DNA of 64,000 bases, from contig UZAE01012077.1 of assembly GCA_900617975.1 (NCBI GenBank), positions 1-64,000 of the forward strand, written 5' to 3'. The stretch comes from Rodentolepis nana (taxonomy: Eukaryota; Platyhelminthes; Cestoda; Cyclophyllidea; Hymenolepididae). Both the position numbers and the translations under genes were made by a program. Under the pieces are notes generated by a model. It made no database searches. It had not been told where the DNA came from and saw nothing but the letters and a program-made list of their open reading frames with translations. Of this stretch, positions 6,979-55,600 are shown piece by piece (position 1 is the stretch's first letter; every line of letters starts with the position of its first letter).

Positions 6979-7311
6979 GGGGTGTGCGATAGACTTACCT
7001 CCACGTGGTGCACCCTGGGCAACGTATACTCATACGGCAAATTAGTCTATTAACCGGCAGTTGACTTCTCACTTCAAACTACCATCTCCCCACTGTATGT
7101 CATATTCGACTACTTCCACAGTACTCACCTCACCTTTTTCCTACCTCTGTGTCTGTCTCTTTTACATCTTTGAATCACTCTTCTGTTCCCCCCCCCTCCC
7201 CACCATCTCGACTTTTTTCTCTTTGATTTTCCTTCCCCTCTGTGAAGCCCGAAGTCAACTAAAGGGCTAATGATAACTATCATAATGCCTGCCATTTGAT
7301 ATAAATAAATA
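6979..7311 (+). mobile_element. SINE-like retroposon, copy 1, full length
   Basis: Starts GGGGTGTGCGATAGACTTAC, contains the conserved box CACGTGGTGCACCCTGGGC, a CT-rich middle and CGAAGTCAACTAAAGGGC, and ends CCATTTGATATAAATAAATA. It is flanked by a perfect 14-bp direct repeat AATGATTTATATGT (6965-6978 and 7312-7325), as expected for target-primed reverse transcription. No protein-coding capacity is recognised. Confidence 0.88.
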
Positions 7312-9301
7312 AATGATTTATATGTCGTTGCTATTTAAAGTTCTATTTATGCATTCCCTAAATGACTCGAATAACTTTTTGTTAGAACTCGGATATGCCT
7401 AAGAGAAATTATTTGCTCCAGGAAATCTCTCTTCTAACAGGACTGTTTGTTTTAACGGAATAAGATCTTGGGTTGTAAACTAGGGAACAGAAAATTTTAC
7501 CCCAATTACGTAAAATCAGTAAGGCAATTCAGTGGCAATTCGGTATGAAAAAATTGATAAAATATCGATTCCAGACGGTTTGTGGGAATATTTACCCTGA
7601 AAGCTCTATGCATCAGAAGTTCAAACCAAATTAAGACCACTTCTAACGGAGGAATTTTATTGGTTAGGGATATGGCTTCACTTTATCTGACCCCTCCTGT
7701 AAGTTTCTTTAAGCAGTTAAGAACCTTCATGTATGGGCTGACTCGAACTTTTAAAGAGAGAGTAAATGCTCAATATCCAAAGCCGTATAAGGTGAAAATA
7801 GACTGTTAAAACTATCCGAAATACTTGCGTTTGTTCGGATCTATGCGAAAATAACTATGTGTGTAGGCGCATGAGAGGCAAACATTTGGAATCTCTTGAC
7901 CCCTTTAAACGACGGAAAAATAATGAATTTTTACCTTACATTTACTAGTGCGATGTTGCCATATTTTAGTACTCTTAAGTTTAATTTATTCATGAATATC
8001 TCGTGTGTTTTATTTTCAGTAAATTTAAAAATGGAATCTAGATATCTAAGGCAACAAACTTATTTCTTGTTAAGATACATGATTTAAAATTAAAATAATT
8101 CGAAAACTTAAGTATTCCAATAACGAATGCAATAAAATTAATTAAACATAACACTGAAATAGATATTGTTTCTTTAATTTAACGCGGTCATCAAATGTTG
8201 CAACGCTCTACTAATATAATAATTATTAAAATATTGAATTTGAAATAAAAGTAAATATGAATTACATCCCTCCAAACAAAAATAGGAGGAATTGGTTAGA
8301 CAACCAGTAGGAGTTGAGGTGAAGAATGGCGAACGCAACAGAAGAACAAATTTTAAGCATGGAGTGTAATTGGACAACGAATTGGGAATGACCGTGAGAA
8401 ACCAGTTTCGAATAATCCTTAAGAATGCTAGGAGTAGACTTGTAAGCTAACCCAATGCGGTAGACGATCGGGGAGTCCAGTGTTTTCATCGGCTGGATCA
8501 TGACATTCGTTTAGTCATAGGTTGCTACTGTCCATGGTGGAGGAAGGCAGACTTGGGCAAACGGCGTTTATTGGTTTTTTTTTTATAATTTTCCTTCGTC
8601 TAATTGACTTTATGTCCCATCATATTTACCTGTCCTATCTATGTGATGAGCATTAATGACCTATTTTTATAGACCATGCCTTCTGCAAAGGCAACAGTAA
8701 TGCGATTTTGGAGTTGAAAGTGGAGACTATTGTCTAAAGGCCATTTGGATCTCCACAATGACTGTGATTGACATGCTGTTGGTGGCATAATAATAATGTG
8801 CAGCATTCTGACAGTTTTCAAACTATTCAAAATAGAATAACTCCCATCCTTTAACTTATCCGTCATGATATTTCAGTCCGAAAATACCTTCCAATTTTAG
8901 CTTTTCATGTGAATAGACATAGAAGTAGCAAAAATAGCTTTTTTCATCTGTAGAAAACACATAATACATTTGCTATGCTTTGTTGCTTCAGATACTGAGA
9001 TGGGGTTGAAGGATATGTCAAAAGGCAGTCACTCACATTTTTTTTATTTTCTCCAAGCACTCTCTCTCTCCCTCTGTCTCGTGTTCATGGCATTTCAATT
9101 ACAGGAATTGAATACCAACGGTTCATCTCACGTTAATTTCTCAACTGAACTGAAAGCCACCTTCAAAAGATTGTTTATATTTCCAAATGGCATACTTTTT
9201 CCTTTAAGCTCATTTTTTTCCTATATGTCAATTGGGGTTAAAAATGAAGAAATATGCCTAATCTGATGCCTCATTTTCATTTGTTTTACTTCCATAGGCT
9301 G

Positions 9302-52600: not shown

Positions 52601-55600
52601 TTTCTCCCCTCTGTGAAATTCGAAGGCAGCTAAGGGCTAATGACAACTATCAAAACGCCTGCCATTTGGTATAAATGATCTAGTTGGGTATAAACTACCC
52701 AGAACGTGTCCAAAAACATGAAGCAGAGACAAATAGCTTTACTGAACAATATTTTAAATGATTCAATAAAGGAAAAAATAAAACGAAAAATGTGCTTCTT
52801 GAATTTATCAGATGAAAATATTGCCAAATTAAGAAATCAGTCAGGCAGGGATTCAAAAAAAAGAGCACCCCAATAAAGATTGTCGCTATCTAACTCAAGA
52901 GTAAACTACGCAATTCACCATGTTAGATGGTCTGAAGAGATGCAAGATCCGATTGGCCAGTTGGATCTCTAGACCAAGCAACAACAAACAACTAGTTCCC
53001 TCCCCCACCCCCAGCCAAAACCATTATAGAAAATTACACAGTTTTCTAAATTATGCATAAACATGCTGGCACTGGCCAAAGTAATCCGTTTTCCCAGCGT
53101 GTAAAAATAGACGTGAGTGGTGTGAAAGGCAAAAAAAACCACCTGCAGATACTCGCACAAAACAGTAGTTTTTAGTTAAAGAGAGGAAAAACAAATAACC
53201 TGTCATTTTAGTAATAGACCGAAGTGGTTTGAAACAAACCGGTTTGGGTTGGTAGAGAACAAGAAACAAATACGATAAACTGCCACCTGTGGTCTACAAA
53301 TTCGAGGTGAATAAACACATTGGCACAGGGAATAGCACACAAGATTGAAAGGTTAAATTAACAAACGTGACAACAGAACACAAAAGCTAGAATCACGAAA
53401 ACCAAACCAACTATTGTACCAAAAATAAAGCCTACTATTAAATTCCACTTCATTAAGAGATTAAGTAGTATTGGGCCTGATAGCCGAGGGCAATATTGTA
53501 AGCAGATGTGCCATTCAATAAGGAAAAGGAATAAAGACAATGGTACGGTAAGGGACGAATAAAGGAGAACGTTGCATGATGACTGTTTGGATTAGCTTAT
53601 TCGAAGCAATGAGTATAGCATAGAGACAATAAGTTTTGATTAGTGAAAGGCGAATAAGTCGTCAAAACCCTGTAATAGGAGTGGAATGAATGACAACCCA
53701 GGTAAGGCAAATTCAAGAAGTCTAAATTTATGCTTGTAATACCAAATGGTATCTCTACTCGATAATTTGCCTTCTTAAAAGACCACCCTGCTGAACATCT
53801 TGTGCTTGAAAAAAAAAACAGTTAAAAAAAGCTTGAAAAGTGAATTAACACACAGTTCCCTTCCTAAAAAACTAGCTGATTATTAGAAGGAAATTTCACT
53901 TGATTGTGATGTGAAAAAAATCCAAAGGAAGGTGACATAGAATCTAATCTTCTCTTATTTACAAAAAGCCTGAGATGGAATAGACAACTGGTCTGCTGAC
54001 ATATACTGTCAATGGACAAATAACAAAAAAGACCAATCTATGAGAGCTGAAAACAAAATCTTACTATATTTTAATACTCATAACTAACGTTGATTATTTG
54101 AAGTATGATTGCCCTTCGTATCAAGTAACAACAAGTAACACAAGGTCACACATACCGACAGCCAGCAAGAAGAACCTGTCGATAGATCTCCACTGAGGAT
54201 TTGCCGCCAAATTGTCGACCAATAAGGTAGGTATTGTGGGAGGAATTGATGTAGTAATGGCAAAGCGGCTGATCCATATCTTGGTAGATATCTAGCCGAT
54301 CGAGAAACACCGGAGCATTGTCATCTGACATCAAATAGCGGTAGAAACCCTTCAAATTCACTGTATCTGGAAGAAAATGAACAAAAGTGAGCAAATATTA
54401 TCCACGATTTGAGTGGGAGAAATATTAACAACTTTAGAATGCCCTAATTGCGAATTAATATGATCATATCAGGAATAAGGCGAACAACACATTCATCAAA
54501 TGGGTTACAACCACTTAGTAATTAAAAGAATAGTCTAACTTGGATCAATTGCAGGTAAAACAGGGTTGTCAAGTTAAATAGAAACAATTATCCAAACTAA
54601 TAAATACTTCCCTTCGTTATAAATATACACCTCACCAAATGTGAGAAACCTTTAAATATAACAAATATTGTAATACGCGGAGAGTAAACAATCGCGTCAT
54701 CAGTAGACCACATCTCAGTATATCGAGGCGAGTTACGGTTACGGTGTGTAGGTAGGCAAATGGGAGTAAATATATCGGTGAGAAGTCGAGGACTCATCTA
54801 CTCACATAGAGTGGGGTGTGGGACAGACTTACCTCCACGTGATGCACCCTGGGCAACGTATTCTCTTACGGCAAAAAAAGTCTACCAGCCGGCAGTTGAC
54901 TTCTGCTTCAAACTACCATGACCCCACTGTATGTCATATTCGGCCACATCCGCAATTCTCACCTCACCTTTTTCTACCTTTGTGTCTGTCTCTTTTACAT
55001 CTGTGAAGCACTCTCCTGTTTCCTCCTCTCCAATTTTTGCCACTTTGATGTTCCTCCTCCCCTCTGTGAAGCCTGAAATCAACTAAAGGGCCAATGATAA
55101 CTGTCAAAACGCCTGCCATTTGATAAAAATAAATACTTACATAGAGTCATGGAAAAAGGGACCCAGTGTTTCCCTGTTTACCATCAAACTTTTCAATCAC
55201 ATCAAATGTCCCCACATCGACAAAGTTGCCACTCATATCGAATTCGCACTTTATTACTCGAATTTTTGAGCCAGTCAAATTGCGTGAATATGCATAATTG
55301 AAATGAATTATTTATTCACGGGATCGCATTCCCTTCACGCCATTTTCAAACCCAATGGAGTGTCATTGCAAATTAGGCTTCTTAAAATAATTAATCAAAT
55401 AACTACCTCTTTAGGTGGGCGGTAGCTTTTCCCAACCTATCATAATATTAACCAATATGGATTTCAATTAAGATCATAAATTAACAGACTGTTAGTCAAG
55501 ACATAAAAACGTAGTTACCACCTTCAAGCCTTTCATACGAACTAATATTTATTTGCATCCTGCGCGCATTACTAATTTATACACTTAATTTTAAGGGAAT

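Follow-up and report, generated by a model that had tools for sequence, protein, structure and literature searches.

How does a short retroelement that shows no RNA polymerase III promoter come to have the same 5′ end in copy after copy? This question is raised by the first 64,000 nucleotides of contig UZAE01012077.1 (assembly GCA_900617975.1; hereafter the window) of the tapeworm Rodentolepis nana, in which the original prediction, made from the sequence alone, had noticed a family resembling short interspersed elements (SINEs), with target-site duplications (TSDs) and a fixed 5′ end. We propose, at a probability of roughly 85%, that this family is a non-autonomous retrotransposon, a short internally deleted element (SIDE) headed by a self-cleaving ribozyme, whose cycle would proceed by read-through transcription, self-cleavage and mobilisation in trans by a long interspersed element (LINE). 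The first 72 nt of the element form a predicted ribozyme like that of hepatitis delta virus (HDV), with its predicted cleavage site immediately 5′ of the first G (G1).

The family of about 320 bp that had been described is real: 52 full-length copies sampled from the genome give a consensus of 326 bp. A profile built from four window copies confirmed the count of 11 copies, on both strands; it gave 12 matches, because an internal deletion divides the copy at 28439-28199 into two. With up to three mismatches allowed, the fixed 5′ motif is matched nine times in the window (chance mean 0.01), the internal box motif eight times (0.00) and the 3′ end motif nine times (0.00), and one copy is, as had been noted, 5′-truncated (30569-30408, starting at model position 182). 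The exact 5′ 20-mer of the element occurs 4,471 times in 107.1 Mb of genome, and its reversed control not once; as only three of the 11 window copies hold this exact 20-mer, the true copy number is likely several times higher. We also saw exact 5′ 20-mers at recurring distances from contig starts, 36 bases in (contigs C3 and C36) or 288-290 bases in (C4, C42, C43 and C65); the assembly thus seems to be broken at this repeat, and copy numbers may be underestimated. Substitutions from the consensus range from 4.3 to 15.7% in the sampled copies (median 8.9%, n = 52) and from 4.3 to 17.5% in the window copies, so the bulk of the family is not very recent.

The fixed 5′ end and the box had both been picked out correctly in the original prediction; what was not recognised is that the two together form a predicted HDV-like ribozyme. 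Rfam family RF02682 is matched above its gathering score by one of the 11 window copies (9304-9373) and by four of 40 further genome copies. At E ≤ 1, nine matches to RF02682 or RF00094 are found in the 64 kb, all of them on element 5′ ends and covering seven of the 11 copies, and no other Rfam family matched in the window. Counting the first G as 1, the helices are P1 (1-7/32-38, including a G1.U38 wobble), P2 (11-18/65-72), P3 (19-21/29-31), P1.1 (23-24/39-40) and P4 (45-49/54-58), with C60 as the catalytic C; the roles of helices and residues, the wobble at the cleavage site and the position of the catalytic C we take to be those of HDV.

A template of 24 pairs on this plan (four P4 pairs included, with P2 free to slide by up to 2) is complete in copy 9302, while none of 20,000 dinucleotide shuffles reaches 24 (maximum 20). 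At least 22 pairs are formed at only five places on both strands of the 64 kb, each of them the first G of an element; the spacing of the template was taken from the element, so that these counts speak to its fit to the HDV layout and to specificity, not to independence. Across 79 sequences selected because their 5′ end is preserved, the nested double-pseudoknot pairing of P1, P2, P3, P1.1 and P4 is standard in 93.1% of pair cells, against 30-48% in slid controls; in the same sequences G1 and U38 are each conserved in 77 and C60 in 68. The window copies and their predicted ribozymes are as follows.

6979-7317, plus strand: full-length copy, 4.3% substitutions from the consensus; TSD AATGATTTATATGT (6965-6978 and 7312-7325) abuts the first G.
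6979-7050, plus strand: predicted HDV-like ribozyme of this copy; RF02682 39.6 bits and RF00094 36 bits, neither reaching the gathering score; 23 of 24 template pairs.
9302-9639, plus strand: full-length copy; 14-bp TSD with one mismatch abuts the first G.
9302-9373, plus strand: predicted HDV-like ribozyme of this copy; RF02682 44.4 bits, above the gathering score of 44 (match 9304-9373); P1 9302-9308/9333-9339, P2 9312-9319/9366-9373, P3 9320-9322/9330-9332, P4 9346-9350/9355-9359, P1.1 9324-9325/9340-9341, catalytic C 9361.
12440-12775, plus strand: full-length copy with predicted ribozyme (36.4 bits); 15-bp TSD with one mismatch abuts the first G.
15827-16156, plus strand: full-length copy with predicted ribozyme (35.4 bits); no convincing TSD.
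28199-28439, minus strand: copy that has lost model positions 196-282 by an internal deletion; no Rfam match, although 23 of 24 template pairs form; 17-bp repeat as TSD, with two mismatches and a 3-nt gap to the first G.
29021-29300, plus strand: copy with predicted ribozyme (29.2 bits), 3′ end partly deleted; no clear TSD.
29950-30237, plus strand: old copy (17.5% substituted) with neither a clear TSD nor an Rfam match.
30408-30569, minus strand: 5′-truncated copy (model 182-324) without ribozyme, from the profile search; no convincing TSD.
32464-32793, minus strand: full-length copy with predicted ribozyme (31.1 bits); 14-bp TSD with one mismatch abuts the first G.
52369-52680, plus strand: copy whose ribozyme has suffered a deletion; 9-nt G-rich stretch between TSD and element; no Rfam match.
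54813-55143, plus strand: full-length copy with predicted ribozyme (29.4 bits); 14-bp TSD with one mismatch abuts the first G.

The seven copies with TSDs that had been reported are thus found again, five of them with the duplication directly beside the first G (6979, 9302, 12440, 32793 and 54813), and at the remaining four (15827, 29021, 29950 and 30569) no convincing TSD was seen. We extended this to a sample of 56 full-length copies, 52 of which had enough flank, scoring a TSD as its length minus 3 per mismatch and calling it clear at a score of at least 9. Clear TSDs are present in 33 of the 52 copies, compared with 28 of 1,019 mispaired flank pairs, and in 27 of these 33 the duplication runs exactly to G1, the remaining six leaving 1-9 nt; 40 of the loci were picked, among the first 100 places listed, by their exact 5′ 20-mer, a choice that favours preserved 5′ ends but not abutting TSDs. 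The predicted cleavage site of the ribozyme is the very G at which most clear TSDs end. Insertion leaves TSDs of 11-17 bp which, with the repeat tail, are the signature of target-primed reverse transcription, seen in 33 of 52 copies. Long shared flanks or a lack of flanking repeats at most loci, proposed beforehand as grounds for abandoning the family, are not what the sampled copies show.

The window holds no LINE endonuclease or reverse transcriptase (RT), and the partner of the element was characterised at other loci. Twenty RT loci were taken first, of which seven, judged by eye to be of the long terminal repeat type, were set aside; of 20 longer regions around RT matches, 19 match LINE RT. 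Thirteen of these 19 loci have the 3′ part of the element 0.55-1.3 kb downstream of the RT and on its strand; no such arrangement was seen in L033, L035, L040, L041, L048 and L050, of which L035 and L048 end less than 250 bases from the RT. The LINE 3′ consensus from the 13 loci matches element positions 238-325, with 73 of 87 aligned bases identical. At the other end, an endonuclease search gave at least 153 matches (150 of 1,035 candidates scored), and upstream regions were taken from 20 of the best 23, one being already in the set and two skipped. All 20 begin with ribozyme-like sequence upstream of the endonuclease: 67 of the first 72 bases are identical between LINE and element consensus, and pairs of LINE loci are alike downstream of G1 in 190 of 190 cases and upstream of it in none of 190. 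RF02682 is matched at E < 0.1 in 14 of the 20 LINE 5′ ends, among which one unrelated below-threshold match (RAGATH-25) also occurs. From the ATG at position 104 of the LINE consensus, an open frame extends through the start of the endonuclease. The sequence CCTCCTCGTGG is found in five of the 20 LINE 5′ ends and in one window copy, most other copies being one base off; it is the most conserved sequence of the R2Dm 5′ untranslated region (PMC5035012; here and below, citations refer to those portions of the papers that were available to us). The predicted ribozyme being common to element and LINE, the 5′ end of the element is also LINE-derived.

As to the kind of LINE, its endonuclease is of the PF14529 type and its RT of PF00078, and an RNase H domain (PF00075; 55.1 and 55.2 bits, cut-off 25.8) follows the RT in L046 and L043; PF00075 is also present in R. 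nana proteins P0037 and P0031, and an earlier fragment, from another, decayed copy, had given no Pfam match. RTE LINEs are not known to have an RNase H domain, so the RTE-type partner that had been suggested has to be given up. Among the best 120 of 581 matches, the RT search found tapeworm, unnamed, spider, snail and cockroach proteins, several of them named BS or X-element, a spread that does not settle the clade. In contigs C118, C353, C398, C429, C557, C798 and C816 alike, we further observed two occurrences of the LINE-type 3′ 22-mer at a distance of exactly 52 bases, which suggests that the 3′ end is duplicated in one LINE subfamily.

The element is thus built of a LINE-5′-like segment (position 1 to about 97-108), a CT-rich middle of about 130 nt, a LINE-3′-like segment (238-325) and an (ATAA)n tail. 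As in a SIDE, the 5′ end is common with the LINE (20 of 20 loci), the 3′ end with the same LINE (13 of 19) and the LINE interior is absent from the 326 bp; it is no simple internal deletion, because the CT-rich middle is not LINE sequence either, its matches to the LINE 3′ consensus being of 11 nt at most. In genome counts, exact element-type 3′ 22-mers number 2,140, LINE-type 5′ 20-mers 568 and LINE-type 3′ 22-mers 624. The idea that the copies are fragments of a larger element, and not a distinct short family, could draw on both ends being common with the LINE, but 52 copies have both ends around the same middle of about 130 nt, with TSDs flanking the whole unit in 33, and all 20 matches of the middle in the 19 oriented LINE loci fall inside element copies; we give this idea almost no weight. 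Two loci with repeated 5′ sequence were seen on the way: in the copy L006 (1501-1906) an internal tandem duplication has produced a second 3′ half of the ribozyme, reminiscent of the duplicated Pr77 in SIDER2, and L050 (2121-2710, RT-oriented) has several head-to-tail partial 5′ ends, repeating the ribozyme region, followed by one element 3′ end.

The TSDs and the LINE-like 3′ end agree with the earlier view that the element is derived from a LINE and was spread by target-primed reverse transcription. Together with its size, they would equally suit a classical SINE with a head derived from tRNA, 5S or 7SL RNA. We consider such an origin highly improbable: there is no tRNA and no 5S or 7SL Rfam match in the window, no A or B box on the consensus strand (one loose A-box-like match is on the opposite strand), and the head of the element is LINE 5′ sequence. 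That A/B boxes and a likeness to 5S or 7SL RNA are missing had been stated in the original prediction. A 5′ ribozyme of LINE origin would give the missing RNA polymerase III promoter a mechanistic explanation.

Several results weigh against a ribozyme-headed SIDE. Most of the tested copies, and all 20 LINE 5′ ends, score below the Rfam gathering threshold; four of the 11 window copies have no Rfam ribozyme match at E ≤ 1, and six of the 20 LINE 5′ ends none to RF02682 at E < 0.1. Covariation lends no support, with a single double change among the 79 sequences and a score that is equalled or exceeded in 496 of 500 shuffles, although this null is weak either way since the copies are close and decaying neutrally. 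Plain nested folding of two window copies is no better than that of shuffles (z -0.54 and -0.21; two LINE copies gave -1.46 and -1.93), a test limited by the inability of nested folding to form the pseudoknot. Among sampled copies, 19 of 52 have no clear TSD and six of 33 clear TSDs do not abut G1, and it is possible that a promoter lies within the 5′ end of the element.

Two other readings take up these points. The ribozyme could be a relic, inherited with the 5′ end from the LINE, conserved by descent only and no longer cleaving in the short element; the missing covariation, the low Rfam scores of most copies and the divergence of the sampled copies (4.3-15.7%) would all fit. On the other hand, the mean majority in 52 copies is higher at positions 21-72 (0.925) than in the 3′ part (0.866) or the middle (0.837), a contrast in conservation that may in part reflect how the CT-rich middle was aligned and which copies were chosen, and most clear TSDs abut G1; we regard a relic as unlikely. 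Alternatively, the conserved 5′ end could be an internal promoter, with the fixed 5′ end as its transcription start: Pr77 of the trypanosomatid L1Tc is reported as both promoter and ribozyme (PMC4035085), and a promoter starting at G1 would likewise give fixed 5′ ends. This would leave the complete HDV-like pairing and the Rfam matches unexplained, and no polymerase III box is found on the consensus strand, so that we hold it to be improbable as the sole function, although the 5′ end may possibly serve as both promoter and ribozyme.

For the ribozyme-headed SIDE that we favour, the following cycle can be drawn up. A copy would be transcribed by read-through from a host promoter; the ribozyme would then fold and cut 5′ of G1, freeing an RNA with an exact 5′ end, as the predicted structure and the fixed 5′ ends suggest. 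The protein of the partner LINE, with its endonuclease of the apurinic/apyrimidinic (APE) type, RT and RNase H, may recognise the common 3′ end, and target-primed reverse transcription would insert the new copy between the TSDs of 11-17 bp that we observe, mostly directly beside G1. The LINE too, by its sequence, starts with this ribozyme, and would free its RNA in the same way.

Similar arrangements are known. The R2 and R2/R1 SIDEs of Drosophila also combine a 5′ HDV-like ribozyme with a LINE 3′ end, have the interior deleted, are mobilised in trans and are not transcribed by RNA polymerase III, the hybrid SIDEs having 14-bp TSDs (PMC3414825); they differ in occupying the R2/R1 sites of ribosomal DNA, whereas the tapeworm family is dispersed in thousands of copies and its partner has an APE-type endonuclease and RNase H. 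NARTc/RIME of trypanosomatids, with their L1Tc/ingi partners, are dispersed and abundant short elements whose 5′ HDV-like ribozyme (Pr77) is common with the LINE, L1Tc being described with endonuclease, RT and RNase H (PMC4035085); these belong to another kingdom-level lineage, and the CT-rich middle of the tapeworm element does not come from its LINE. The LINEs R2, R4, Dong, baggins, L1Tc and RTE also have an HDV-like ribozyme at the 5′ end, and in several clades it cuts at the element's first base, while planarian R2, a flatworm case, differs in a predicted cleavage 28 nt upstream of the 5′ junction; the available portion of that survey includes no tapeworm element (PMC3774820).

Self-cleaving ribozymes are also known from SINE-like and repeat families of flatworms, namely SMalpha and the W-elements of Schistosoma mansoni, but these are hammerheads, and neither ‘HDV’ nor ‘hepatitis delta’ occurs in PMC8490949. 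Metazoan non-LTR retrozymes are likewise short non-autonomous retroelements with a self-cleaving ribozyme; they use hammerheads and circular RNAs (PMC7761336), whereas the tapeworm element has an HDV-like ribozyme, normally once, at its 5′ end. Persaeus, a CR1-derived SIDE of Lepidoptera, is similarly a widespread SIDE from a non-LTR element, and the word ribozyme is absent from the available part of its description (PMC6740152). Of tapeworm surveys, the excerpted H. microstoma genome paper assigns 1% of the assembly to LINEs and leaves 14.8% of the repeat sequence without a class, and the accessible part of a paper on cestode terminal-repeat retrotransposons in miniature has no ribozyme. Among the open-licence papers listed, seen mostly as titles and abstract openings, there was no HDV-ribozyme-headed short element in a flatworm. 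Judged by its sequence, the element is a new, dispersed and abundant member of the ribozyme-headed SIDE kind.

In the window, an exon of a phospholipase C-beta homologue is found at 38802-39155 on the minus strand (best PDB match 3qr0_A, E 1.1e-26; no Pfam match). The copies at 52369 and 54813, on the opposite strand and at higher coordinates, are possibly in introns of this same gene; from 32001 to 64000 each 2-kb step has a positive AT skew (+0.07 to +0.21), which fits a long minus-strand gene. Two further minus-strand regions gave weak matches below the Pfam cut-off, 2130-2495 to RhoGAP (19.0 bits) and a 268-amino-acid open frame at 2956-3762 to the Syntaxin-18 N-terminus (17.3 bits). Elsewhere in the genome, the COX1 frame stays open if TGA is translated as Trp (codes 4, 5 and 9) but is broken under code 2, and the gene resembles those of flatworms. 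A schistosome spliced-leader 17-mer had no match, and a schistosome-like fluke was accordingly rejected as the source; the nematode SL1 RNA family had no match either, in a search in which the positive controls also gave none.

We tentatively suggest, while rating it as less likely than not, that the family may represent a class of promoter-less SINEs depending wholly on host read-through, with thousands of dispersed HDV-like ribozymes, sense intronic copies able to cut pre-mRNA, and surviving copies that mostly lie antisense to genes or have a disabled ribozyme. If the proposed identity is true, HDV-ribozyme-headed short retroelements, known from Drosophila ribosomal DNA and trypanosomatids, would extend to tapeworms and, with them, to an animal family dispersed in thousands of copies, and the uniform 5′ end of a SINE without an RNA polymerase III promoter would have a concrete answer. 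A genome with thousands of potential self-cleaving sites would then be a natural test of how far a host tolerates such sites inside its transcription units.

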